Origin: Sulfurimonas sp.
GTDB taxonomy: Bacteria; Campylobacterota; Campylobacteria; Campylobacterales; Sulfurimonadaceae
Direction: 5' to 3'
Assembly: GCF_028714655.1 (NCBI RefSeq)
Contig: NZ_JAQTLY010000008.1
Span: forward strand, 1-64,000
DNA: 64,000 nt
The notes beneath the pieces were generated by a model. That model did not search any database. It was not told the DNA's origin and was given only the letters and a program-made list of their open reading frames with translations. A program made the translations under genes and the position numbers. This document shows positions 13,376-62,645 of this stretch, one piece after another. Every line of letters begins with the position of its first letter. Position 1 is the stretch's first letter.

Positions 13376-14467
13376 ATGAAATTTATTTTAATGTTAGCAG
13401 TGGCTCTATTTTTGACTGTGTTAAGTTTATATGCAGAGAGTTTTACAAAATCTGCAACAATTAAGCCTGAGTTGGTTCAAATAGGGTCGCAAAAAGAGTG
13501 GTGTCCCGTATGTGGTATGAACATCGAGGCATTTTATAAAACTTCTCATACTTCAAAAATTCACAATCATAAAGATAGACAATATTGTTCGATGAGATGT
13601 TTAGCCGTCGATATGCAAGAGCATGAAATAAATATTGATAGTATAAAAGTCGTGGATGTTGCAACGCAAAAACTGATCAATGCAAAGAGTGCTTATTATA
13701 TAGTCGGTTCTGATGTGCAAGGCACAATGTCAAAGGTCAGCAAGCTGGCTTTTGGAGATAAAGAAGCGGCAGAAGATTTCAATATGGAGCATGGCGGAAA
13801 AATCGTTGATTTTAAAACTGCTCTAAAAATGGCGCAAGATTCACTTGCCTCTGATGTTGAAATGGTGCAAAATAAGAAGAACAAGCAAGTTTATCCGATG
13901 GGCAAAAAAGTGTTTGAAAAAAATTGTAAAAATAACATAGATATAAACGCTTATTTAGAGATAAACGAGCTAAAGGCGGGTATAAGGGAAAAACAGTTTT
14001 GCGGTGATTTAAATGAGCCGGAACTTCAAGCACTCTCTTTATATCTTTGGGAAGTAAAAAGATTCGGTTATACGCAAAACAGCACTGATTTTATAAAAGT
14101 AAGCAAAGATGAGAAGTGTCCGGTTTGCGGAATGTTTGTCTATAAATATCCAAAATGGGCAGCGCAAATATTTTACAAAGATAAACACTTATCTTTTGAC
14201 GGTGCAAAAGATATGATGAAGTACTATTTTGAACATAAAGATGGTATAAGCAAGATGTTGGTTTCGGATTACTACTCTCAAAAAGCAATAGATGCTGCAA
14301 AAGCTTACTTTGTAATCGGCAGCGATATTTATGGACCTATGGGGCATGAGCTTATACCTTTTAAAAACGAGAGTGAAGCAAAAACTTTCAGTTTGGATCA
14401 CAAAGGCGTAAAGGTTTTAAAGTTTGAAGAGGTCAAACAAAAAGAAGTTCAAAAATTAGATGAATAA
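13376..14467 (+). CDS. Tandem NosL-domain protein with a heme-less cytochrome-like centre
   Basis: Exported protein (signal peptide about residues 1-20) with two NosL-type domains. The first has WCPVCGM (Cys43, Cys46, Met48) and a CSMRC site (Cys71, Cys75). The second has KCPVCGM (Cys248, Cys251). Between them, residues about 172-232 follow a c-type cytochrome layout: a first helix YPMGKKVFEKNC and a last helix LNEPELQALSLYLWEVKR. There is no CxxCH, so no covalent heme is expected. NosL binds Cu(I) for NosZ maturation. A copper-carrier role here is inferred. The gene heads a tightly coupled plus-strand locus and overlaps the next gene by 8 bases. Confidence 0.8.
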   Translation: MKFILMLAVALFLTVLSLYAESFTKSATIKPELVQIGSQKEWCPVCGMNIEAFYKTSHTSKIHNHKDRQYCSMRCLAVDMQEHEINIDSIKVVDVATQKLINAKSAYYIVGSDVQGTMSKVSKLAFGDKEAAEDFNMEHGGKIVDFKTALKMAQDSLASDVEMVQNKKNKQVYPMGKKVFEKNCKNNIDINAYLEINELKAGIREKQFCGDLNEPELQALSLYLWEVKRFGYTQNSTDFIKVSKDEKCPVCGMFVYKYPKWAAQIFYKDKHLSFDGAKDMMKYYFEHKDGISKMLVSDYYSQKAIDAAKAYFVIGSDIYGPMGHELIPFKNESEAKTFSLDHKGVKVLKFEEVKQKEVQKLDE

Positions 14468-14771
14468 AAAAAGTAAGTTTTTGTTTTACTCTTTTTTTGT
14501 ATCGGCTACTCTTTTTTTTATTGAAATAAGCTATCTTTACACTGCAAAAAGTATGGATAGAGATGCTCTTGATAAAAAAAAAGAGTTTGTAAAATCACTA
14601 GGAATTCCTGATTTGGCAATTTCAACAGAGGCTTCATATGTCAGACATAGAAGTTTAAGCGATTTTTTTTCAATATATAGAGATGATGGAACATTAAGAG
14701 AGTATTTTGCATCGACCTATCTATTTTCTCATTCAAATATTATAAATACCAAGAGCAAAAATGAGAAATAA
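14460..14771 (+). CDS. Small single-pass membrane protein of the NosL-ABC locus
   Basis: Unrecognised 103-residue protein with one N-terminal membrane helix (about residues 6-28) and a polar tail that probably faces the periplasm. It overlaps the tandem-NosL gene by 8 bases and the ABC permease by 11. It is therefore almost certainly translated as part of that operon. No known motif is visible. Confidence 0.65.
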   Translation: MNKKSKFLFYSFFVSATLFFIEISYLYTAKSMDRDALDKKKEFVKSLGIPDLAISTEASYVRHRSLSDFFSIYRDDGTLREYFASTYLFSHSNIINTKSKNEK

Positions 14772-15936
14772 AATCAATCTTTACATAGTAGAGTATGCCA
14801 TAAACTCGCTGCTTCGTCAAAAGTACAAAACATTTTTCGTATCATTCATTTTAAGCGTTCTTGTCTTTTTGCTAAGTTCGCTCTTTTTTATAACAAACTC
14901 CATAAAATATGAACTTCAATCCACCGTAAATTCTCTTCCTGAGATAACCGTTCAAAAGATTAAAGCTGGGCGGCATTACGATATGGATGTAAGCGTTGTT
15001 GATGAGATTTTAGAGATTACAGGTGTAGAGAGTGCCGTTGCTAGGGTTTGGGGATACTACTACTTTGAAAATGCGGGAGTAAATTTTAGCATTGTCGGTT
15101 TGGATGAGTATGAAGAGCAGTATAAAAACTCTTTTGTCGAAGCCGTAAAAAAACTCGATTTTAGTAAATCTTCCATGGTAGTGGGAGAGGGCGTTAAAAA
15201 AATTATGGATAAGAACTACTATAGAGAGTATTTTAACTTCATAAAACCAAACGGAGAGCTAAAGAGGGTAGATATCGGCGGTTTGTTTAAGGGTCAAACG
15301 GAGTTGGAGTCAAACGATGTGATAGTTATGAGCAAAGAGAGTGTAAGAGAGATTTTTGATATGGATGAGTCAAAAGCTACGGATATAGTAGTCAAGGTGG
15401 CAAATTTCAATGAAGTTGCAAAAGTGGCTTCAAAGATTAAACTTCTCTATCCCGACAGCAGAGTGATAACAAAAGACGATTTAAAGATAAGTTATCAAAA
15501 TATTTTTGATTATAAAAGCGGAATTTTTTTGGCTCTTTTCGTCGTTTCGCTTTTTACATTTTTTATAATTGTTTATGATAAGGCAAGCGGGCTTAGCAGT
15601 GAACAAAAAAGAGAGATAGGTATACTAAAGGCAATCGGCTGGCGGGTAGACGATGTGCTTAGAGAGAAGTTTTATGAAGGCTTTATAGTCTCATTTTTCT
15701 CATATATGACGGGGGTTATTTTGGCGTTAGCTTTTGTATATATATTTAAAGCCCCGCTTTTGCAAAATATTTTTACGGGTTACTCTGGGCTAAAAACATC
15801 GTTTAATCTCCCTTTTGTGCTTGATGTGCAGACTTTGGCTCTGATATTTTTTCTAAGCGTGCCGATTTATATAGCGGCGATAATTATTCCTTCATGGAGA
15901 AGTGCTACGCTTGAAGCGGATGAGGTTATAAGATAG
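14761..15936 (+). CDS. ABC transporter permease, FtsX/MacB type
   Basis: Inner-membrane permease of the type VII ABC (MacB/LolCE) class. The 391-residue protein has an N-terminal helix (about 20-42), a large periplasmic domain (about 45-250), and three C-terminal helices starting near GIFLALFVVSLFTFFIIV. The cytoplasmic coupling segment EQKREIGILKAIGW is typical of the family. Such transporters usually move substrates within or out of the periplasm. The neighbouring NosL proteins suggest a copper- or lipoprotein-related job. Confidence 0.85.
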   Translation: MRNKINLYIVEYAINSLLRQKYKTFFVSFILSVLVFLLSSLFFITNSIKYELQSTVNSLPEITVQKIKAGRHYDMDVSVVDEILEITGVESAVARVWGYYYFENAGVNFSIVGLDEYEEQYKNSFVEAVKKLDFSKSSMVVGEGVKKIMDKNYYREYFNFIKPNGELKRVDIGGLFKGQTELESNDVIVMSKESVREIFDMDESKATDIVVKVANFNEVAKVASKIKLLYPDSRVITKDDLKISYQNIFDYKSGIFLALFVVSLFTFFIIVYDKASGLSSEQKREIGILKAIGWRVDDVLREKFYEGFIVSFFSYMTGVILALAFVYIFKAPLLQNIFTGYSGLKTSFNLPFVLDVQTLALIFFLSVPIYIAAIIIPSWRSATLEADEVIR

Positions 15937-16604
15937 TGATAGAGTTAAAAGAGATAGTTAAGCAGTATGAAGCAAACGGTATAGATACCGTAACGGCGTT
16001 AAAAGAGATAAATCTTCATATAAGCAAGGGTGAGCTGGTAGTGTTAAGAGGTGCAAGCGGAAGCGGAAAGAGTACGATTCTCTCACTCATTGCCGCTCTT
16101 AGCAAACCTACAAGCGGAGAGGTGGTAGTCGGCGGAGATAGAATATCCAAGCTTCCCGATAACTTTGCATCCGATTTTAGACGCCACAGTATAGGTTTTG
16201 TTTTCCAAAAATATAATCTTATACCGACCCTTAGTGTAAAAGAGAATATAATTTTACCGCTTGTCCCTATGAACATGGAAGCTAAGGAAATTGAGGATAA
16301 GCTGCTCAGAGTTTTAAAAATGTTTCATATTGAGCATAAAGAGAATCAGCTTGTTAAAAATCTCTCAGGCGGAGAGCAGCAAAGGGTAGCAATAGCAAGA
16401 GCAAATATAAATAATCCACAAATTATTTTGGCAGATGAACCTACCGCCAATTTGGATGAGAAGCTCTCTTTGGCTTTTATAGAGATTTTAAAAGAGCTAA
16501 AAAAAGATGGCAAGACTATTGTAATAGCTACGCATGACCCGCTCTTTTTTGGACTGGATATTGTAGATAGAGAGATAGAAATCTATCAGGGAAGTATCGT
16601 TTAA
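15936..16604 (+). CDS. ABC transporter ATP-binding protein, LolD/MacB type
   Basis: ATPase partner of the preceding permease. The 222-residue protein has Walker A GASGSGKST, the Q-loop at FVFQKYNLIPTLSV, the signature LSGGEQQRVAIARA, and Walker B IILADEPTANLD. The GTG start overlaps the permease stop by one base, and its own stop overlaps the next ATG. This places three genes in strict translational coupling. Confidence 0.93.
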   Translation: MIELKEIVKQYEANGIDTVTALKEINLHISKGELVVLRGASGSGKSTILSLIAALSKPTSGEVVVGGDRISKLPDNFASDFRRHSIGFVFQKYNLIPTLSVKENIILPLVPMNMEAKEIEDKLLRVLKMFHIEHKENQLVKNLSGGEQQRVAIARANINNPQIILADEPTANLDEKLSLAFIEILKELKKDGKTIVIATHDPLFFGLDIVDREIEIYQGSIV

Positions 16605-17551
16605 TGCTCTTAACCCCTGAAGTACTGACTATTCTTATATTAAATGGCATATTTGCGCTCTTAGGCGTAGTGGCTTTTGTATTAAGCGTAAGAATATATT
16701 TGGGATGGAATATAGACTCGACTTTGCCTCTGCAGTATAAACTCGAAAAAGAGAGCTTTTTAGCATCGACGATTATAAAATATATATTTAGCATAAAAGT
16801 GCCGCTTTTTCTATTTTTTGTTTTCGCGCTAGATAAGATATCCAATGTTATAACGGGTGCCATGTGTGCGGCAGGGGTTGTTGATGCTGCGCAGATAGGG
16901 ATGAGTCTTATAGTTTTAAAAATTATAAATTTATATCTGTTTGCTTATTGGCTAAGACTTCATTCTCAGGATATGACGGATAAAAATCAGCCCTATACTA
17001 AACAAAAATTCGGACTCTTTATAGGGCTTTTTTTTCTTTTTATAGTTGAGGTTGTTTTAGAGATTTTTATGTTTAGTTCTATTGAGATAAATAAGATGGT
17101 CAGTTGCTGCGGAAGTATATACTCAAGTTCTTCAACATCTGCTATCTCTACACTTTTTACGCTGGATACTTCTCTTTTGCTTGCTCTGTTTTATGGCAAT
17201 TACCTACTAATTGCACTCTTTTATTTTTTAAAAAATAGATATATTTTTACTCTCTTAAACATAATTTTTATACCGGTTTCGCTTATATCGCTTATACTCT
17301 TTTTCGGAACATATATATATGAACTTCCCTCTCACCACTGCCCGTTTTGTTACTTGCAGAGTGATTACTATTATGTCGGATATCTTATATACTTTTTACT
17401 TTTTATCGGAACATTCTACGGTTTGGTCGTGAGTTTTGTAAAAGAGTCGAAAGCAAGCTATAGAGTCTCACTTTTATTTAATTCTCTTTATGTTATATTG
17501 CTGACAATGTATGTAGTGATTTACTATATAAAAAATGGCGTTTTGCTATAA
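16604..17551 (+). CDS. Eight-helix membrane protein with CCG and HHCPFC motifs
   Basis: Unrecognised 315-residue integral membrane protein with about eight membrane helices. Two loops are rich in Cys: MVSCCGSIYSS near residue 167, and SHHCPFCYLQSDYYYVGY near residue 247. The His-His-Cys-x-x-Cys cluster could bind a metal or act in thiol chemistry. The gene is coupled to the ATPase upstream and followed 8 bases later by a NosL lipoprotein. It is probably part of the same transport or metal-handling machine. No function is assigned. Confidence 0.7.
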   Translation: MLLTPEVLTILILNGIFALLGVVAFVLSVRIYLGWNIDSTLPLQYKLEKESFLASTIIKYIFSIKVPLFLFFVFALDKISNVITGAMCAAGVVDAAQIGMSLIVLKIINLYLFAYWLRLHSQDMTDKNQPYTKQKFGLFIGLFFLFIVEVVLEIFMFSSIEINKMVSCCGSIYSSSSTSAISTLFTLDTSLLLALFYGNYLLIALFYFLKNRYIFTLLNIIFIPVSLISLILFFGTYIYELPSHHCPFCYLQSDYYYVGYLIYFLLFIGTFYGLVVSFVKESKASYRVSLLFNSLYVILLTMYVVIYYIKNGVLL

Positions 17552-17559
17552 GGATGTGT

Positions 17560-17988
17560 ATGTTGAAGCTTAAGTTGTTACCGTTATTTTTATTTTTTAT
17601 TTTTTTAGGTTGTCAAGATAAGATTGAGAGTGGAGCTGCAAAGATAAATTGGGATAGAGACATGTGTGACAGATGTGTTATGGTTTTGAGTGATAGAAAG
17701 CATACTATTCAACTTAGAGATCCAAGCAGTAAAAAAGTTTATAAGTTTGATGATATCGGATGTATGGTTTTATGGTTCAATGAGGAAAAGATAGCGTACA
17801 AAGATAGTGTTCAAATTTGGATTACCGATGCGATAAGCGGAGAGTGGATAGATGCAAGATCTGCCTTTTATACAACACAAAATGTTACGCCTATGGCATA
17901 CGGATTTAGCGCATATAAAAATAAAGAGTCTATAAAATCCGGTGATGAGATTATAACTTACGATGAGGTATTAAAAAGAGTAAAATGA
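17560..17988 (+). CDS. NosL-family lipoprotein
   Basis: Copper-binding accessory lipoprotein of the NosL family, 142 residues. The signal peptide ends in the lipobox FLGC (Cys18). The metal motif is CDRCVM (Cys36, Cys39, Met41), followed by FDDIGCMVLW and TPMAYGFSAY. These last two segments closely match the second NosL lipoprotein in this window (19998-20468), so the two are paralogues. ATG 17560 is chosen because AAGGA sits 6 bases before it; the upstream ATG at 17554 overlaps that site. Confidence 0.87.
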   Translation: MLKLKLLPLFLFFIFLGCQDKIESGAAKINWDRDMCDRCVMVLSDRKHTIQLRDPSSKKVYKFDDIGCMVLWFNEEKIAYKDSVQIWITDAISGEWIDARSAFYTTQNVTPMAYGFSAYKNKESIKSGDEIITYDEVLKRVK

Positions 17989-18614
17989 AAGCACATATAA
18001 AAAATATAGTTCTTTTTAATAACATAGATGAAGAGACGATAAAAAAAATAGAAGCTTTTACGACTGAGTACAAAATTCCTAAAGACAATATTGTTTTTTA
18101 TGAGGGTGATGACCCGAAATTTTTATATCTTTTAGTAAAAGGTGTTATCAAACTCTACAAAACATCCTCAAGCCATAAAGAGATAGTCCTTAAATATTTT
18201 CATGACAATGAACTTATCGGTGAAGTTGCAAACTTTGAAGGTATCCCTTATCCTGCAACGGCAAAAGCTTACAGCGATGTCGAGATTTTAAAAATTGATT
18301 TTGATAAATTAAAAGATATTATATTTTCAAATCCGAATATGGCATTTAATATTCAAACATCTTTGATAAAAAAGATTAAAAATCTTGAAAACATCATATC
18401 AACAAACTTGGTGTTGGATTCAAGAGAGAGAGTAGCAAAATATATCTATAACCATGTCGATGATTTTTTTGAGACAAAAAATATAGAGATAGCAGAAGTG
18501 CTTGGTGTCTCACCGGAGACGCTCTCAAGAATATTAAAATTTTTCAAAGATAACAACACTATAAATGTTAAAACCAGATATATAAACAAAGAAGCGCTAA
18601 TCGAGTATTTTTAG
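17985..18614 (+). CDS. Crp/Fnr family transcription regulator
   Basis: DNA-binding regulator of 209 residues with an N-terminal cyclic-nucleotide-type beta-barrel (about 10-120), a dimer helix and a C-terminal winged helix (IAEVLGVSPETLSRILKFFKDNN). It contains no cysteine at all, so it cannot carry an FNR-type Fe-S cluster. It could sense another signal, such as NO, through a cofactor. It overlaps the NosL lipoprotein gene by 4 bases and ends the plus-strand locus. Control of this locus or of nosZ is an inference. Confidence 0.9.
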   Translation: MKAHIKNIVLFNNIDEETIKKIEAFTTEYKIPKDNIVFYEGDDPKFLYLLVKGVIKLYKTSSSHKEIVLKYFHDNELIGEVANFEGIPYPATAKAYSDVEILKIDFDKLKDIIFSNPNMAFNIQTSLIKKIKNLENIISTNLVLDSRERVAKYIYNHVDDFFETKNIEIAEVLGVSPETLSRILKFFKDNNTINVKTRYINKEALIEYF

Positions 18615-18651: not shown

Positions 18652-19149
18652 TTAAATTTTTCCGTTAAGCAGTCTTATAAGAGCGTCTGATATTTGATTG
18701 AAAGCCATTACCCTTTTTCCGTTATGTTTAGAAGCAAAGTTTTTAGCTGCTTCATATGTTGCAAACGCTACCAAATCGTCACCTGCAGGTGAAGTTACAT
18801 TGCTTCCGTAAACAAAAAAAGCACCTTTGGCGTTTATCGGTTTTAGCGTGTCAAAATCGGTAACTAGTATCTCTTTGAAATCGTTCTCGCTTTTTACTCC
18901 GATATCAAACCATTTTCCCGGAGTTTGATAGAACTCTATCATTGATTTGGGAGATGAAAAGAAAAGTTTTTTGCCGTTTGTAAGCTCTACTTTAGCAACC
19001 CATTTAGGTTCTTGATAAACTTTGATTTTTCTGACTATACAAGTTGACTCTTTGTCATAATCCATTTTGTATGATTCGTTTGCAACTAAAGTCGAAATTA
19101 GCGAGAGAGATGAAGCAATCACCAGCGATGTAAATAATTTTTTGTACAT
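18652..19149 (-). CDS. NosL-like periplasmic protein without the CxxC motif
   Basis: Exported protein of 165 residues (signal peptide about 1-23). Its fold pattern matches the second domain of the tandem-NosL protein: EPKWVAKVELTNGKKLFF, ITDF-like, INAKGAFFVYGSNVTSPAGDDLVAF, and AAKNFASKHNGKRVMAF. The usual CxxCGM is reduced to STCIVRK, leaving one Cys. It is the last gene of the nos cluster, after nosY. It may bind copper differently or act as a structural partner. Confidence 0.75.
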   Translation of the reverse strand: MYKKLFTSLVIASSLSLISTLVANESYKMDYDKESTCIVRKIKVYQEPKWVAKVELTNGKKLFFSSPKSMIEFYQTPGKWFDIGVKSENDFKEILVTDFDTLKPINAKGAFFVYGSNVTSPAGDDLVAFATYEAAKNFASKHNGKRVMAFNQISDALIRLLNGKI

Positions 19150-19160
19150 AAAAACTCCTT

Positions 19161-19988
19161 TTAAACTAAATCTTTTTTTTCAAATATTTTAAAACCGGCG
19201 TAAGCAAAAGCCAATCCGATTAAAAGCGGATAGCCTATCGATAAAAGAACAAATACGCTTTGGCTCATCAAATCAAGTATATAAAATGCAACGGGACCCA
19301 TAACCGTCAGTTCGGGATCAAAAAGAGAGATAGCGGCTACTCTAAAGAGTTCCATAGGATTAATCATAGATATAAATATAATTAACTCTTCATTTAATCT
19401 TTGCTGCATCATTAGCGAGATAAGAGCTATATCAATAAAAGCAAGCAGAAATATCCATACGAAAAACGAGATTCCGAGTGCGACTTCGGATGATTTTACA
19501 AACGAAGATATAAAAAATGCAATCCCCAAAAAAGCGCTTGAGAGTGAAAAAAGCAGTCCCGTATATAAAAAGAAGATACTCCACGGAATTGCCGCACCTT
19601 TTATGAAACCGAAGATTATAGCGATAATCATAGCAAAAAGAACCGGCAGATATACCGTGATAAATCTTCCTATGATTTTACCCCAATAGTATTGTCTAAG
19701 CGAAATTGGAAAAGAGAGCATATACTCAAGTATATGATTGTCTCTGTCACCCGAGATTGAGCGAACCGTGGTTATAAGTATAAATATAGGAAGTATAACT
19801 ATGGTTATTTGGATATACATAAGCAGAAGTCTGCTGAGTCCGCTGAATCCCATAACTTGAGATTCAGTCACTCCCGCAATAAAAAAGAGGGCAATCAACC
19901 CTCCAAATACAAGAGAGTAGACCAAAAACCATTTGGCTCTTATGGACTCTTTCAAATCCAAGTATGCAATTAAATATAAATTTTTCAA
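19161..19988 (-). CDS. nosY: NosY-type ABC transporter permease
   Basis: Membrane component of the NosDFY complex, which supports copper-centre assembly on nitrous oxide reductase. The 275-residue protein has about six membrane helices and the NosY-typical segment ITTVRSISGDRDNHILEYML between the second and third helices. It lies downstream of nosF and nosL, the Wolinella arrangement. Confidence 0.9.
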   Translation of the reverse strand: MKNLYLIAYLDLKESIRAKWFLVYSLVFGGLIALFFIAGVTESQVMGFSGLSRLLLMYIQITIVILPIFILITTVRSISGDRDNHILEYMLSFPISLRQYYWGKIIGRFITVYLPVLFAMIIAIIFGFIKGAAIPWSIFFLYTGLLFSLSSAFLGIAFFISSFVKSSEVALGISFFVWIFLLAFIDIALISLMMQQRLNEELIIFISMINPMELFRVAAISLFDPELTVMGPVAFYILDLMSQSVFVLLSIGYPLLIGLAFAYAGFKIFEKKDLV

Positions 19989-19997
19989 ACTAATCCT

Positions 19998-20468
19998 TTA
20001 TTGTCCAAGTATCTGTTTTCTGATTTTTGGATTTGCCATATGTTCGCCTCTGAGCATCTTAAGCTTTACTTCATCTATCTTTATGAAGCTCTCTTTTTTG
20101 TATTCATAAGCGCTAAATCCATAATTCATAGGTGTTTTTTCACTAATCGTAAAATATGCCGCAGAAGCTTCTATATATCTATGCGTGTCGTTTGTAAAAA
20201 CTTCTGTTTTTGCCGCATCTATATCTATGTTTTTATCTTTAGCCCATAGAACCAAACATCCTATATCGTCAAAATAGTAACTGTTCGTATCTTTTAATAT
20301 CTTTGCCGTATGGATATTTGATGAGGGCAGTTCCATATTGCATTTTGAGCAAACTTTATGATTAGCGTCTCTCTCTTTGGAAGATGAGGCTTCCGAAGTG
20401 TTGCAACCGGTTATAAAAAACAGGAGTAGAAAATTTAAGATAAAAAATAAAAATCTAAAATTTCTCAT
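19998..20468 (-). CDS. nosL: Copper chaperone lipoprotein NosL
   Basis: Periplasm-facing lipoprotein that binds Cu(I) for NosZ maturation. The 156-residue protein has lipobox ITGC (Cys22), the metal motif CSKCNM (Cys40, Cys43, Met45), then FDDIGCLVLW and TPMNYGFSAY. It overlaps nosF by 14 bases and sits between nosF and nosY, the two subunits of one transporter. It is the standard NosL of this cluster and is paralogous to 17560-17988. Confidence 0.92.
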   Translation of the reverse strand: MRNFRFLFFILNFLLLFFITGCNTSEASSSKERDANHKVCSKCNMELPSSNIHTAKILKDTNSYYFDDIGCLVLWAKDKNIDIDAAKTEVFTNDTHRYIEASAAYFTISEKTPMNYGFSAYEYKKESFIKIDEVKLKMLRGEHMANPKIRKQILGQ

Positions 20469-21093
20469 CTGAAACTATTTTTCCCAAGTCCATATATATT
20501 TGTCTGTTTACAAGTTCTTGAACCTCTTCAAGTCTGTGCGTAACAAAGAGAAGAACTTTTTCATCCTCATTTTGTTTTAAGAGTCTATAAAAATCATCCC
20601 TTGCTTTTGGGTCAAGATTTGCAGTCGGTTCGTCGTATATAATGATACTGCTTTTTTTAGCCAAACTTATTGCAATAAGCAGTTTTTGCTTCATTCCGCC
20701 GCTTAGTTTGAAAAAAGATTTATAGAGATTGGACTTGATGTCAAGTTTCATCTCATTTGAGTAGTGTTCAATGAGTTCTTTGTCTATATCCGTACTCATA
20801 CAAACATACTGCATAAGTTCTTGGATATTTAATTTAATCGGGGGAGGGAGTTGCGGTACGAAACTGATGTTTTGCAGCACTTTGACTCTATCTTTAACAG
20901 GGCAAAAACCGTCTATCAAAACTTTCCCAAAATCAGGATGGTAGTATCCGAGGATTGAACGGATGAGGGTTGTTTTTCCTGCACCGTTTGCGCCCATTAA
21001 TGCTATGGAGTCATTTTTGTTAAATTCGCAGCTGACATCATCAAGAGATATATGCGAACCGAATTTTTTTGTAAGATTTGAGATAGTTATCAT
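20455..21093 (-). CDS. nosF: NosF-type ABC transporter ATP-binding protein
   Basis: ATPase that drives NosDFY. The 212-residue protein has Walker A GANGAGKTT, the signature LSGGMKQKLLIAISLA, and Walker B SIIIYDEPTANLDP. It starts 2 bases after nosH ends on the minus strand and overlaps nosL. Confidence 0.93.
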   Translation of the reverse strand: MITISNLTKKFGSHISLDDVSCEFNKNDSIALMGANGAGKTTLIRSILGYYHPDFGKVLIDGFCPVKDRVKVLQNISFVPQLPPPIKLNIQELMQYVCMSTDIDKELIEHYSNEMKLDIKSNLYKSFFKLSGGMKQKLLIAISLAKKSSIIIYDEPTANLDPKARDDFYRLLKQNEDEKVLLFVTHRLEEVQELVNRQIYMDLGKIVSDEKF

Positions 21094-24080: not shown

Positions 24081-25298
24081 TTATCCTTCAGTCTTAACTA
24101 TTGGTTTTTTATCTTCAAGTAAAAAAAGCGGCTTTGTAAAAGGAGCCAGTTTCGCCAAAAAATTTAGCAAAGAGATAACAGGCGATCCGTAAAAAAATTT
24201 TACATTTGGATTATAAAGCCAAAGCTGATCCGCATATCGATAAACTTTGTGCGGCGTGTCACCTATGTTGTCGCCGTTTCTATCGAAACCTTCGTAATTA
24301 TCCCAATAATTTTCTCTTATATCATTGTTATAAGTCTTGCTTGATTTACCGTCATTTACGACATCTTCGATATTTCCCATTATCTTATTGTTCTTTATAA
24401 TATTATCTTCACTTAGTGAATGGAAATGAAGTGCTTCGGCATTGTATAATATTTTATTGTTTTCAATCCAGTTGTTAGTCTCCGGTTCAAACGGAGATCT
24501 GTCGATATAAAGACCCTGTGCGCAGTAAAGAATAGTATTGTCTTTTATGGTAAAGTTCGTAACCTCTTTTAGCCCTATGCCCATTCCGGTGGCACCCAAA
24601 GAACTTTTTATTATATTGCCTGATGCAACGGTATCTTTTGAGTACATAAAAAATATCCCTACGGAGTTGTATTGATATCTATTATTTATTACATTGTTTT
24701 TACCGGCATACATAAAGTGAAGAGAATATCTGCAATACTCGCCGACATTCTCTTCTATGGTATTTCCGTGGCTATACCAAACAACCATATCACGCGAGCG
24801 AATAAGCGAGTTTTTTTTGACAATATTGTTGTTGCTATACCAAAGTCTTAAACCGTCTCCTTTGAGTCCAAGCTCAAAATTTTTCGATGTAATTTTATTG
24901 TTTGATATTACGGAGTTGCTTACCATTTGCATATCAATGCCAAATAGACAATCTTCTATTACACAATCACTAACTTCGCACTGCTTCGCTTCAGATATAG
25001 TGATGGCAGCATCAATTTTTTCATGCCTTGCACCGCTGTTTATAATTTTTAAATTTTTCAGCGTTACAAAAGAACTTTTAACCGTTATTACGGTTCCGTC
25101 TCCCTCTCCGTCAATAATAACGCCGTTTTCTCTGCCTATAATCGTCAAAGGCTTGTCTATAGTTATTTTACCTTTATAGACTCCCGCAGGCAATTTTAAA
25201 ATTGATCCGCTAGGAGCATTGTCAATCGCCTCTTGTAGCACACCGGCACTTAACTCGGCGGTAAGAAAAACTATAGTGAAGAGGAAAATTCTAAACAT
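24081..25298 (-). CDS. nosD: NosD periplasmic copper-insertion protein
   Basis: Right-handed beta-helix protein that, with NosF and NosY, helps build the copper centres of NosZ. The 405-residue product has a signal peptide (about 1-17) and many repeated beta-helix turns such as VISNNKITS and VINNRYQYNSVGIFFMYSKD. It ends with a hydrophobic C-terminal region. It starts 2 bases after nosB ends. Confidence 0.93.
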   Translation of the reverse strand: MFRIFLFTIVFLTAELSAGVLQEAIDNAPSGSILKLPAGVYKGKITIDKPLTIIGRENGVIIDGEGDGTVITVKSSFVTLKNLKIINSGARHEKIDAAITISEAKQCEVSDCVIEDCLFGIDMQMVSNSVISNNKITSKNFELGLKGDGLRLWYSNNNIVKKNSLIRSRDMVVWYSHGNTIEENVGEYCRYSLHFMYAGKNNVINNRYQYNSVGIFFMYSKDTVASGNIIKSSLGATGMGIGLKEVTNFTIKDNTILYCAQGLYIDRSPFEPETNNWIENNKILYNAEALHFHSLSEDNIIKNNKIMGNIEDVVNDGKSSKTYNNDIRENYWDNYEGFDRNGDNIGDTPHKVYRYADQLWLYNPNVKFFYGSPVISLLNFLAKLAPFTKPLFLLEDKKPIVKTEG

Positions 25299-26259: not shown

Positions 26260-28860
26260 TTAGAATAGATTTGCATTCTGATCTACCCATTTTAGGTATT
26301 CAATAATGTTTTTAGTATCTTTTTCATCCATATGCTGATTTGGCATTTTTAGATTAAAGTAATCAATCATACCTTTAACATAAGGATCGTTATACATAGC
26401 TTCAGGTTTCATAACGAAATCTTTAACCCATTTCTCACCCTCTTTACCGTGTCTTGAAAGAACACCCGTTAAGTCCGGACCTGATGAAACTTTACCGATA
26501 ACATGGCATCCGCCGCATCCGCCTTCACCGAATGCTTTTTCACCCGCAGCCGCAGCAACTGATTGTTTTGTAGCGATTAGTCTTACAAGCGCATCTTTTG
26601 CTCTGATACCAACATCCGCAGTCTTAACCATATACTGCCAAATCATGTTCTCAAAAAGAATCGCTTTTTCCATATCGCCGGCTTTTACAGCAGCATCAGC
26701 TTGTTTCTTTTGCTCAGGAATTTTTCCATACTGATCCATAGCATCCGTTACAAGGTCAGCAACAACTTTATGTTTTTCATATTTGTTCTCTTTTAAGAAT
26801 TTAACAACAGATTGGATAACCGCATCAGTAGCGGCATTCGTTGCAACAGTTTTGTCATATTCAGCTTTTAACTGCTCAGGAGACATAGTCTGCATTTTTT
26901 TCTTTTGAGAACTATCGTACTTTTTGTTTGGATCTTTAACCATCAAATAACCCATCATCTCTAAGTGAAGAGCTGAACAAAACTCTGTACAGTAGTAAGG
27001 GAAAACACCCTCGATATCTGCTATAAACTTGAGACTTGAAGTTTTACCGGGCTCCAGTGATGCATGGAGGTTATAGTGGTCAACTGTAAATCCGTGTGAT
27101 TCATCTTGCGCACGCTCAAGGTTTGTTAGGTACATAGTAACTTCATCACCTTTGTTTACGGTAATTCTTTCAGGGTTTATGTGTGAACGAACAACTGTAG
27201 CATAAATTGTAACTTTATTGCCTTTTCTCTCAATTCTCTCTTGACCTGCAAGTGTTTTACCTTCGTGAATAGAATCTGTTCTTGAGTTGGTACCCATTGC
27301 GTATCTGACATGTCCATTGAGTTTTTCGGATCTAATAGCAACAGCGTTGTGTGGCTCACCTAACGGTAGAGGCATATCAACAAGAAGATCCATCTTTTTG
27401 CCGCTAATATCAATTAACTGGTGGTTTTGCGGATGCAGTGGACCGACATTTTGGAATCTATCAATCGCCAGTTTGTTTAGAGCGATAATATATCTTCCTT
27501 GAGGATCCATTGTTTCACTCTCCATGCCACATAAGTGACCAATGTTATAGTGAACATTTTGTTTATCAATTACTTTTAGAGTTTTGTAGTTCCATTTTAC
27601 AACTTGACTATCAACATAGAGTGAAGTATATATCTCTCCGTCAACAGGAGAATATTGGCTATGTAATGGCCCCAGTCCCAGCTCAGCTTGACCGTGTAGA
27701 GATTTTTTCATATCTAAGATAGGAATCCCGAATGGATCTTTTCCTGCATACTCTTTGTTTTTAATAAGTTTTTGAATTTTTTCAAAACTAAAAACAGAAG
27801 CGTGTGTATCTAATTTTCCACAAACAGTGATGTAGTTACCATCAGGAGAAACATCCACACCGTGCGGTGATTTTGGTTCAGGAATTAAGAACAGAGCATC
27901 ATTTTTAACAGCTACTTCCATAGGGATAACTTTATGATCATTGATGATTTTTACATTTTTAGAGTCTTTTGCAAGTTCTGCCAATTTTTTCCAGTTATAG
28001 ACATGTAAAAAGTCAGTATCATTTCTACTCATACCTGCTTCGTTTGGCGGCATACCTACTTCGATTCCGCCTGTGTACATTTCACTGTTTACAGAGTTGG
28101 TAAAACCCCAACCGTCAGATACAGCTTTACCGGAGTCACTTAAATCTTGCATATACGGAGGCATTTCAATAGTAAATGACTCTTTTTCTTGGATTCTACC
28201 TTTTTTATGGTCAAATCTCCACATTGTAACACCGCCGCGGTAATCCTCTTTATAGTCTTCAATCGGATGATAATTATTATCAAACGGAGCAGCGTATTGA
28301 CATGCTTCTAGGATAAAATCACTATTTTGAGTAAAGAAAGCTCCGCCGTGAGATGATTTGAATACAGGATTAACTACAATTTGCTTTGTTTCAAAGTCTG
28401 CTAAGTCGATAATTGCTATACGAGGGTTTGCTTTATCGTTAATCGCTAACCATTTACCGTCATATTTTCCATCTTTTTCCGATAACGCAGGGTGGTGAGT
28501 ATCTCCCCAATTAATCTCTCTTCCTCTGATATTTCCTTGTCTGAGAATTTTTTTAGATTCTTCATCGAATCCGTATCCTTGCCAAGGCTCAGGAGTAAAT
28601 ACACCAATGTATTTTAAAATTCTCATAGACGGAACACCGTAAACAATTACTTGTCCTGCTTGCCCGCCTGAACTAAATACTACATACTCATCTTTAACAC
28701 CTGAAGGGTTGTAAGTTTTTGCAGCACGAACTACATCAACTTCGCTTAAGCCCCTTTTCTTCATTACCTCTGCTAATTCACCGCCGGCAGCAGCTAACGC
28801 CGTTGCAACCAGTGAAGTGCCTAGGATAATCGAAGAAAACTTACTGAAATGTCTTTCCAT
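26260..28860 (-). CDS. nosZ: Clade II nitrous oxide reductase with C-terminal cytochrome c domain
   Basis: Periplasmic copper enzyme that reduces N2O to N2. The 866-residue protein has a Sec-type signal peptide (no twin arginine), typical of clade II. An N-terminal seven-blade propeller carries the His ligands of CuZ (for example DTHHPAL and SPHGVDVSPDG). A cupredoxin domain holds the CuA motif CTEFCSALHLEMM near residue 625. A fused C-terminal monoheme domain has CGGCH near residue 783. The heme domain is the electron entry point known for epsilon-type enzymes. A Crp/Fnr-like palindrome lies upstream. Confidence 0.98.
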   Translation of the reverse strand: MERHFSKFSSIILGTSLVATALAAAGGELAEVMKKRGLSEVDVVRAAKTYNPSGVKDEYVVFSSGGQAGQVIVYGVPSMRILKYIGVFTPEPWQGYGFDEESKKILRQGNIRGREINWGDTHHPALSEKDGKYDGKWLAINDKANPRIAIIDLADFETKQIVVNPVFKSSHGGAFFTQNSDFILEACQYAAPFDNNYHPIEDYKEDYRGGVTMWRFDHKKGRIQEKESFTIEMPPYMQDLSDSGKAVSDGWGFTNSVNSEMYTGGIEVGMPPNEAGMSRNDTDFLHVYNWKKLAELAKDSKNVKIINDHKVIPMEVAVKNDALFLIPEPKSPHGVDVSPDGNYITVCGKLDTHASVFSFEKIQKLIKNKEYAGKDPFGIPILDMKKSLHGQAELGLGPLHSQYSPVDGEIYTSLYVDSQVVKWNYKTLKVIDKQNVHYNIGHLCGMESETMDPQGRYIIALNKLAIDRFQNVGPLHPQNHQLIDISGKKMDLLVDMPLPLGEPHNAVAIRSEKLNGHVRYAMGTNSRTDSIHEGKTLAGQERIERKGNKVTIYATVVRSHINPERITVNKGDEVTMYLTNLERAQDESHGFTVDHYNLHASLEPGKTSSLKFIADIEGVFPYYCTEFCSALHLEMMGYLMVKDPNKKYDSSQKKKMQTMSPEQLKAEYDKTVATNAATDAVIQSVVKFLKENKYEKHKVVADLVTDAMDQYGKIPEQKKQADAAVKAGDMEKAILFENMIWQYMVKTADVGIRAKDALVRLIATKQSVAAAAGEKAFGEGGCGGCHVIGKVSSGPDLTGVLSRHGKEGEKWVKDFVMKPEAMYNDPYVKGMIDYFNLKMPNQHMDEKDTKNIIEYLKWVDQNANLF

Positions 28861-28939: not shown

Positions 28940-28959
28940 AATTTGACTAAGGTCAAATT
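28940..28959. promoter_or_regulatory. Crp/Fnr-type operator upstream of nosZ
   Basis: A perfect 20-bp palindrome with 8-bp arms AATTTGAC and GTCAAATT around TAAG. The TTGAC-N4-GTCAA core has the form of Crp/Fnr-family sites. It lies about 90 bases before the nosZ start, in the only gap between nosZ and its upstream neighbour. The two Crp/Fnr proteins encoded nearby are candidate ligands. Confidence 0.75.
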
Positions 28960-60694: not shown

Positions 60695-61449
60695 TGTGTA
60701 AAGATTGCGGATGCGGCATAATAGAACATAGATATGAACATACTCACGAACACTCTCACGATATGCAAACTATCCATGCAAATCCTCAGTTAAACGACGC
60801 AAAAACTATCGAAGTAATAGAGAAGATTTTAGATAAAAATGACCATGAAGCTTCTCATAACAGAGCGCATTTTGAGAGTCACGGAGTGTTGGCGATAAAC
60901 ATTATGAGCAGTCCCGGGAGCGGAAAAACGGCACTTTTAGAGAAGTTTGCCCAGATGGCAAAATTTAAGTTCGCCGTTATAGAGGGCGACTTGCAGACCT
61001 CAAAAGATGCAGATAGGCTAAAAGCCAAAGGAGTAGAAGCTTATCAGATACAAACCGGCAGTGCGTGTCATTTGGATGCTTTTATGGTTCATAAGGCGCT
61101 GCATCATATCGATTTAGATGCGGTAGATGTCTGTTTTGTAGAAAATGTCGGCAACCTTGTATGTCCTGCCTCTTACGATGTCGGAACACACCTAAACATA
61201 GTCCTTGCAAGTGTACCGGAGGGAAATGACAAGATAGCAAAATACCCTGTTATGTTTCGCAAAGCCGATTTAGTGCTTATCACAAAAACAGACCTTTTGC
61301 CTTATATAGAGTTTGATGTAGAAGCAGAGAAAAAAGAGGCGAGAAAACTAAAACCAAATGTCGATATCTTAGAAGTAAATATAAAAGATGACGACTCTAT
61401 AAAAAGAGTCCTAGGTTGGATAGAGTTTAAAAGAGGGATGAGGGCTTAA
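60694..61449 (+). CDS. hypB: Hydrogenase nickel incorporation protein HypB
   Basis: GTPase that delivers nickel to [NiFe] hydrogenase precursors. The 251-residue protein has an N-terminal metal site (CKDCGCG, Cys2-Cys5-Cys7), a short His-rich stretch (HRYEHTHEHSHD), and the P-loop SSPGSGKT (residues 72-79). The conserved VENVGNLVCPA segment, with a metal-binding Cys, follows. Its 3' end overlaps the convergent flavoprotein gene by 4 bases. Confidence 0.96.
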   Translation: MCKDCGCGIIEHRYEHTHEHSHDMQTIHANPQLNDAKTIEVIEKILDKNDHEASHNRAHFESHGVLAINIMSSPGSGKTALLEKFAQMAKFKFAVIEGDLQTSKDADRLKAKGVEAYQIQTGSACHLDAFMVHKALHHIDLDAVDVCFVENVGNLVCPASYDVGTHLNIVLASVPEGNDKIAKYPVMFRKADLVLITKTDLLPYIEFDVEAEKKEARKLKPNVDILEVNIKDDDSIKRVLGWIEFKRGMRA

Positions 61450-62645
61450 GCCCTAGCTATATGTTTTGCAGCCAGATATCCGCTTGCCCATGCAAATGCA
61501 AAGTTGTATCCTCCGCGGCGACCGACTACATCTAAAACTTCTCCGCAGAAGTAGATGTTTTTTTGTTTAAGCGATTCAAAAGTTTTTGGGTTTATCTCCG
61601 TCGTATCGACTCCGCCGCCGCTTACTTCTGCATGGCGAAAACCGTGAGTACCGCTTACTTCAAAGCGCCAGTTTAGCATCTGATTTGCTATTTTTTTGGC
61701 AAGTTTTACGCCGATTTCATCTTGGCATAAAGAGGCTGAAATATCCAACTCTTCCAAAATTCCTGAGGCTATTTTTGTCGGAACAAGCCCTATTAGAATA
61801 TCAAAAATCGTCATTTTTAGCGATGAGGTTGCTAGTTTGTTTATGTGGGCTGAGAGTTTTTGCGCGTTGAGGTTTGGAAGCAGGTTTACGGATATGCTTA
61901 CATGCGAAAACTCCATCAAAGCTGTACTTGCCATCTGTGATATATCTAAGACGGCAAAACCGGAGACACCGTAGTCTGTAAAGAGTATATCACCGCTGGA
62001 AGTTGCTTCTTTTTTATTGTTGACAAGCAGTGTAACTTCGCCCTCTATCTTTGCTCCGCTCATCTTTTTTGCAATGTTGGAGTTTAAATGAAGTTGTACC
62101 AAAGATGGATATGTCGGAATGATGTTATGCCCAAACTCTTTTGCAAACTCTAAACCGTCTCTGTTTCCGCCAAGATGTGAGGCTGCTTCTGAACCGGTTG
62201 CTACGACGACGGAGTCATACTCACTAAGTAATTTTTTTATATCACTGATTTTTTTATCGGTATGGATAGCTACACCAAGGTTTTTTGCATGGCTAAGAAG
62301 CAGAGAAGCGACGCTTTTTGCTTCATTGCTTAGAGGATATACTCTTCCGTCATCTTTAATATCAAGTAAAAGACCGATACTCTCGCAGAACTTCTCAAAC
62401 TCGCCAAATCCGAATTCTTTAAGTGCAAACTCTACAAATAACGGATTTTGCGAGAAATAATCATTTGGGCTTAGGTTTTTGTTTGTAATATTGCAGCGAC
62501 CGTTTCCCGATACTAAAATCTTTTTGGCACATTTTGCATTTTGCTCAAAAACATCAACACTTAGAGATTTTTTTGCGCAAAATATGGCACATAAAAGTCC
62601 TGAAGCTCCACCGCCTATGATTGCTACTTTTTTTTCTTTTAACAC
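61446..62645 (-). CDS. BaiN/HI0933-family NAD(P)/FAD-dependent oxidoreductase
   Basis: Flavoprotein of 399 residues with an N-terminal FAD-binding motif (VAIIGGGASGLLCAIFCAK), the family string VSGNGRCNITNK, a second nucleotide segment (DSVVVATGSEAASHLGGNRDG), and the C-terminal GEVLDVVGRRGGYNFAFAWASG. The physiological substrate of this common family is not established. Confidence 0.9.
   Translation of the reverse strand: MLKEKKVAIIGGGASGLLCAIFCAKKSLSVDVFEQNAKCAKKILVSGNGRCNITNKNLSPNDYFSQNPLFVEFALKEFGFGEFEKFCESIGLLLDIKDDGRVYPLSNEAKSVASLLLSHAKNLGVAIHTDKKISDIKKLLSEYDSVVVATGSEAASHLGGNRDGLEFAKEFGHNIIPTYPSLVQLHLNSNIAKKMSGAKIEGEVTLLVNNKKEATSSGDILFTDYGVSGFAVLDISQMASTALMEFSHVSISVNLLPNLNAQKLSAHINKLATSSLKMTIFDILIGLVPTKIASGILEELDISASLCQDEIGVKLAKKIANQMLNWRFEVSGTHGFRHAEVSGGGVDTTEINPKTFESLKQKNIYFCGEVLDVVGRRGGYNFAFAWASGYLAAKHIARA

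Follow-up and report, generated by a model that had tools for sequence, protein, structure and literature searches.

Introduction

NosDFY, together with NosL, is an ATP-driven inner-membrane machine with periplasmic NosL Cu(I) chaperones, in which NosY is an ATP-binding cassette (ABC)-2-type protein and NosD is a beta-helix. In the Campylobacter P19/FetM metal-uptake operon, P19 and FetM are encoded alongside MacB-like permeases. LolCDE, MacAB, HrtBA, FtsEX, and YbbAP-TesA are type VII ABC systems, a class that performs ATP-driven work in the periplasm via partner proteins, with no substrate passing the membrane (PMC12646458). In Pseudomonas aeruginosa, PA4063-PA4066 encode a split MacB-type permease and ATPase together with periplasmic metal-binding proteins; this set is Zur regulated and linked to zinc and to cobalt-pyochelin (PMC11481552). 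Here we describe a plus-strand locus at positions 13376-18614 of a 64,000-nucleotide stretch of Sulfurimonas sp. DNA (contig NZ_JAQTLY010000008.1; the whole stretch is referred to as the window), five genes of which form a module encoding a tandem NosL protein, a small membrane protein, a type VII ABC permease, an ATPase, and TM8, a protein with eight predicted transmembrane (TM) helices.

The module shares with NosDFY and NosL the general design of an ATP-driven inner-membrane machine with periplasmic NosL proteins and is often their genetic neighbor, but it has no NosD, its permease is of the type VII FtsX class rather than ABC-2, it includes TM8 and a DsbD_2 partner, and it is not tied to nosZ. 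With the type VII systems named above it has the fold and topology of the permease and ATPase in common, whereas it is partnered by NosL domains, by a membrane protein with Cys and His motifs, and by a thiol reductant; it has one permease, and no MacA or TolC was recognized. PA4063-PA4066 resemble it in pairing a MacB-type permease and ATPase with periplasmic metal-binding proteins, but NosL, TM8, and DsbD_2 are not described there. The sole earlier mention that we found in the open-access literature (subscription reviews lay outside the search, and an earlier description is possible) is a “five-gene insertion” in the nos clusters of Sulfurospirillum cavolei, two genes of which were named as an ABC permease and an ATPase, with no function given (PMC4794192). 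The order reported there (hypothetical, ABC permease, ABC ATPase, hypothetical, hypothetical) is the module order, and, judged by gene order alone, the insertion is very likely this module. That report treated the genes as extra genes inside nos, made no link to NosL or copper, and did not see their independence of nosZ.

Copper supply is limiting for N2O reductase and for high-affinity oxidases, and the route by which copper reaches these enzymes is poorly known in Campylobacterota, including the N2O consumers of vents and sediments. We propose, with a probability of about 0.5, that the module is the core of a conserved envelope machine for ATP-driven periplasmic hand-off of Cu(I), which would supply cuproenzymes, N2O reductase among them. 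This reading is suggested by type VII permease-ATPase pairs that occur with TM8 and usually with NosL-type CxxCxM domains. We hold a bolder version more tentatively, at somewhat less than even odds: that this would be the first type VII ABC machine dedicated to copper-enzyme metallation, a seven-gene periplasmic Cu(I) relay, common to Campylobacterota and one or more further phyla, in which TM8 represents a novel family of Cys/His copper proteins of the membrane. The module is a concrete, deletable gene set, and a nosZ-specific NosL protein can now be separated from the putative general machine.

A conserved five-gene module

Seven open reading frames (ORFs) lie on the plus strand at 13376-18614, six of them nearly all overlapping and the seventh a Crp/Fnr gene. 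Checked ORF coordinates gave overlaps of 8, 11, 1, and 1 bases between consecutive ORFs, followed by a 2-base gap and a 4-base overlap. Families were assigned by Pfam and NCBIfam searches, TM8 was modeled with AlphaFold2, and fold matches were sought with Foldseek against the PDB. These analyses bore out the initial annotation, made from the window sequence, as to the six overlapping genes and the regulator, their coordinates and domain content, the MacB/LolCDE-type permease and ATPase (FtsX domain, ABC_tran, and fold matches to LolE, MacB, and HrtB), and the eight-helix protein with Cys/His motifs. An identical gene order was seen again in dozens of genomes, far beyond chance, and the five genes from tandem NosL to TM8 are a conserved module.

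The permease (391 amino acids [aa]; 14761-15936) carries the FtsX C-terminal domain PF02687 (43.6 bits; cut-off, 25.5). Its model (predicted local distance difference test [pLDDT] score, 81.9) has TM1, a large periplasmic domain (about residues 60 to 237), and TM2 to TM4, which is the type VII topology, and its nearest solved folds are LolE, MacB, and HrtB, with E values down to 2e-15 and LolE/LolC ranking best. The ATPase (222 aa; 15936-16604; ABC_tran, 3.5e-36) has intact Walker A (GASGSGKST), signature (LSGGE), and Walker B (IILADEP) motifs, and its top-ranking NCBIfam models are of the FtsE/LolD/MacB type, though below their cut-offs. On predicted fold and partner type (an FtsX-class permease with an FtsE/LolD/MacB-type ATPase), we place the pair in the type VII ABC superfamily.

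TM8 (315 aa; 16604-17551; pLDDT, 88.6) carries the motifs M87-C88, C168-C169, and H244-C246-P247-C249 in the loops between TM2 and TM3, TM4 and TM5, and TM6 and TM7, respectively. Every residue of these motifs was invariant in two sets of relatives (72 and 41), among them five cysteines (C88, C168, C169, C246, and C249) and one histidine (H244). These loops lie on the face poorer in Lys and Arg, so they are predicted by the positive-inside rule to be periplasmic. TM8 matched no Pfam or NCBIfam family (none in Pfam at an E value of ≤1), no PDB sequence at an E value of ≤10, and no PDB fold at an E value of ≤0.001; fold searches returned generic helical bundles, with DsbB/VKOR not among them. 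This blank, obtained with the C-terminal half barely covered by VIA-align, is evidence neither for a novel fold nor against a relationship to known proteins. TM8 thus stands as a family without a Pfam model and without a recognized solved relative.

The tandem NosL protein (363 aa, with a signal peptide; 13376-14467) matched Pfam NosL (PF05573) in two stretches (187.6 bits; cut-off, 24). Domain 1 contains C43-x-x-C46-x-M48, and domain 2 contains C248-x-x-C251-x-M253 with a distal M322; the central domain between them has C184 and C209. Across 33 relatives the ligand-type residues are 97 to 100% conserved, with CxxCxM near-invariant in both domains and the distal Met of domain 2 conserved at 97%. 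Domain 2 aligned to the Pseudomonas NosL structures 7osf and 7znq (E value, 7e-10), with CHVCGM and GAMG matched. NosL binds Cu(I) via CXM, and the clade II form of the motif is CXXCXM (PMC6530538); with CXXCXM in both domains and a conserved distal Met, the tandem protein fits the clade II motif and is a putative Cu(I)-binding protein. The remaining module gene (14460-14771) encodes a 103-aa protein with a single predicted TM helix, identified by reading the sequence, and a short tail in the periplasm; it matched no Pfam or NCBIfam model, and its poorly conserved relatives precede the permease gene in most module loci.

An anchored NosL-like protein and DsbD_2 accompany the module

We sampled 149 relatives, 108 of them good-quality genomes. 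An anchored NosL-like gene was present in 65 of the 67 module-bearing good genomes and in 5 of the 41 without the module (odds ratio, 234; this and all co-occurrence statistics below ignore phylogeny). The anchored NosL-like protein is thus the tightest partner of the module, far more tightly linked than nosZ. Its gene adjoins a DsbD_2 gene in all 14 loci read. The present genome carries the two genes on a different contig (G000:C4, about 61165-62514, L193), in Sulfurovum-type genomes the pair often closes the module, and the order tandem NosL-small TM protein-permease-ATPase-TM8-anchored NosL-DsbD_2 is common to Campylobacterota and a second phylum where contigs allow (L223). From this arrangement we assign both genes, which were outside the view of the initial annotation, to the same system as the module. 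A 906-aa gene beside the pair was considered as CcsBA and rejected; it encodes DNA polymerase I.

In the machine that we propose, DsbD_2 would keep thiols reduced, and TM8 and the NosL domains would be the Cu(I)-binding components facing the periplasm. Hydrolysis of ATP would move the periplasmic domain of the permease by mechanotransmission, with copper not carried across the membrane, and this movement would drive the hand-off of Cu(I) from TM8, or of incoming copper, to the NosL chaperones. These in turn would metallate cuproenzymes, namely, cbb3 oxidase and, where present, N2O reductase, the latter via a nosZ-linked NosL lipoprotein. The machine probably receives its supply from outside through a TonB receptor in some lineages: among 86 loci with enough flank, a TonB-dependent receptor lies within 4.5 kb at 7 and TonB at 5. 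The weakest step is the direction; we favor supply over export because of these receptors, the clustering with nos, and the distribution of copper enzymes. Separately, in L060 (11784-14218, minus strand), genes that we named from their sequences as ExbB-, ExbD-, TonB-, and histidine kinase-like lie directly upstream of the tandem NosL gene.

Several points weigh against a copper hand-off machine. The putative binding of metal by TM8 is read from conservation alone, the anchored NosL-like protein scores under the Pfam NosL cut-off, and divergent permease-ATPase-TM8 sets occur with no recognized NosL beside them (L079, L080, L081, L083, and L084, within the range L079-L084). The co-occurrence counts, which ignore shared ancestry, include 33 good genomes that have cbb3 or nosZ and no module. 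Moreover, cbb3 maturation in Campylobacter jejuni proceeds via CcoI, CcoS, PCuAC, and Sco (PMC8267372); given these factors and the 33 module-less genomes, cbb3 does not require the module. In favor of a copper-handling role, the divergent set in L081 has directly after it genes for a di-heme cytochrome c peroxidase, a cupredoxin of the plastocyanin type, and a cytochrome c, and similar genes follow in others.

The same proteins could serve thiol-redox chemistry or heme and cytochrome c biogenesis, in which case the NosL domains would be redox proteins or proteins of a heme site. The DsbD_2 partner would suit such a role, as would the CPFCxLQ sequence at the start of TM7 in TM8, which we take to recall a DsbB-type CxxC site, with no homology detected. 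The heme exporter HrtBA is among the fold matches, the central domain of tandem NosL resembles a cytochrome c from which CxxCH has disappeared, and a CcsBA-like gene lies upstream of the module at three loci. Those three are out of 86, however, the CxxCxM motifs with a distal Met are Cu(I) ligands rather than redox CxxC pairs, and CxxCH was found in none of the 142 NosL-type proteins of module loci. We consider this explanation improbable, if the best surviving of the alternatives.

nosZ is a frequent companion of the module, not a requirement

The initial annotation had read the locus as a second transporter set, for copper delivery, copper export, or NosL lipoprotein trafficking, in support of N2O reduction and had suggested that frequent occurrence in genomes without nosZ would count against this. 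Of the 149 relatives, 92 have the permease and 93 have TM8, almost one set, and nosZ was found in 67. In the 108 good genomes (with one short permease match, G117, omitted as LolC-type), module and nosZ occurred together in 39, the module alone in 28, nosZ alone in 10, and neither in 31 (odds ratio, 4.3; P = 0.0007). The second phylum was sampled with 78 genomes through the L182 genome, that of an unclassified bacterium whose GC content is 61% in the stretch read; TM8 matched in 7, one of them weakly, and nosZ was present in 6 of these 7 versus 20 of the other 71 (P = 0.005; with the weak match excluded, P = 0.014). The expected enrichment was thus seen in two phyla, but the set is also common in nosZ-less genomes. 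The module often comes with nosZ but does not require it: of the 67 good genomes that carry the module, 28 have no nosZ, and several of these 28 are complete on a single contig. Conversely, 10 of the 49 good nosZ-bearing genomes lack the module, as do Wolinella-type nos clusters (PMC4794192).

What did hold of the link to nosZ concerns one gene, the NosL lipoprotein gene at 17554-17988. Its 144-aa product has a CxxCxM motif (CDRCVM), TPMAYGF, and a lipobox-like LGC, and its NosL match is subthreshold (21.3 bits; cut-off, 24). Close relatives (E value, <1e-30) were found in 35 of 38 nosZ-positive and 0 of 51 nosZ-negative relatives, and in some genomes the gene lies inside the nos locus (L087 and L090). 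On these grounds we assign it to nos and not to the module, in whose operon it is carried. In L087, L090, L096, and L100, we also observed a NosD paralogue (46 to 49% identical) and a 174- to 179-aa gene adjoining the nos cluster; in three of these four loci they adjoin the NosL lipoprotein gene.

Exclusive service to N2O reduction, with the whole operon as a second transporter for NosZ maturation, is largely refuted by these counts, and we rate it slightly below thiol or heme chemistry. In its favor are the enrichment in both phyla, the fact that the module clusters with nos repeatedly and in several arrangements, and the position of the nosZ-linked NosL gene as the last ahead of the regulator; nos genes lie within 4.5 kb at 19 of 86 module loci. 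The annotation was right that this is a second ABC system, distinct from NosDFY and rich in Cu(I)-type NosL domains, and that NosDFY is encoded separately, nosD, nosF, and nosY lying on the minus strand. The system clusters repeatedly with nos across genera and orientations.

A copper enzyme survey, covering cbb3 (ccoN) and nosZ, found ccoN in 96 of the 108 good genomes. The 4 module-bearing good genomes with no detected ccoN all have nosZ, and the module was found in 0 of the 8 good genomes lacking both (Fisher P = 0.0003). This distribution fits a general supply of copper.

Trafficking of NosL lipoproteins to the outer membrane by a dedicated Lol-like extractor, another role that had been suggested, is weakened and now seems quite unlikely. 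LolE and LolC are the best structural matches, NosL lipoproteins have been proposed as Lol substrates (PMC6530538), and a lipoprotein or anchored NosL gene is often next in order. Each locus has one permease gene, however, with no LolC/LolE pair, and the permease scored 43.9 bits against a lolCE cut-off of 362.45; the genome has other lolC/E-like genes; the anchored NosL-like partner mostly begins with a helix that has no lipobox; and TM8 with its Cys/His motifs and DsbD_2 would be left unexplained.

MacAB-like export or detoxification of copper across the envelope, which the MacB-like permease and ATPase and the proposed cobalt-pyochelin exporter PA4063-PA4066 (PMC11481552) might suggest, is equally unlikely, as no MacA- or TolC-like conserved neighbor was recognized (for MacA, by eye among neighbor ORFs, with no profile search made), TonB receptors at some loci point inward, and the module is absent where no copper enzyme was found. 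The pair also differs from MacAB-TolC itself: ATPase and permease are separate genes rather than a MacB fusion, and the permease scored 14.1 bits against 966 for the MacB model.

Genomic setting and regulation

In the genus Sulfurimonas, the module lies downstream of htpX-prmC-DUF4149. In many nosZ-negative genomes, a trio resembling ftsZ-ftsA-ppiD by size and order follows closely 3′ of it, and in the present genome the nos genes sit between the module and ftsZ. The facing minus-strand operon is a clade II nos cluster that includes nosZ (26260-28860), nosD (24081-25298), and, assigned by position and similarity, nosF (20455-21093) and nosY (19161-19988). Upstream of the module in L106, a small ORF (17626-18072) has weak similarity (27%) to NosZ and is perhaps a cupredoxin.

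The Crp/Fnr-family regulator (209 aa; 17985-18614; cNMP_binding and HTH_Crp_2) may serve the module rather than nos, because its gene is retained beside the module in five nosZ-negative genomes (L037, L042, L045, L046, and L051); it is absent at most other module loci. A perfect palindrome, TTGACTAAGGTCAA, resembling an FNR/Nss box, lies upstream of nosZ at 28943-28956, is the only exact match in the window, and recurs upstream of nosZ in three relatives (L085, L091, and L092). No such box precedes the tandem NosL gene in the window or in the loci listed, except for a looser match in L095. In the transcriptome report on Nitrosophilus labii, neither NosL nor an ABC transporter appears in the main text (PMC11539149).

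Two further kinds of NosL-type protein were noted. A NosL-like protein (18652-19149, minus strand; Pfam NosL, 67.5 bits) closes the facing nos operon, outside the module; it has lost CxxCxM and the distal Met, as have its relatives, as aligned and shown, yet it is retained beside nosY, and without copper ligands it perhaps has a structural role. In L229 (1619-4372), a 917-aa ORF combines a NosL domain with NapH/CcoG-like 4Fe-4S membrane domains and a DUF4198-like region, possibly uniting a cupric reductase and a copper chaperone in one protein; an 896-aa ORF in L230 (1713-4403) is a putative counterpart, the domains having been established in L229.

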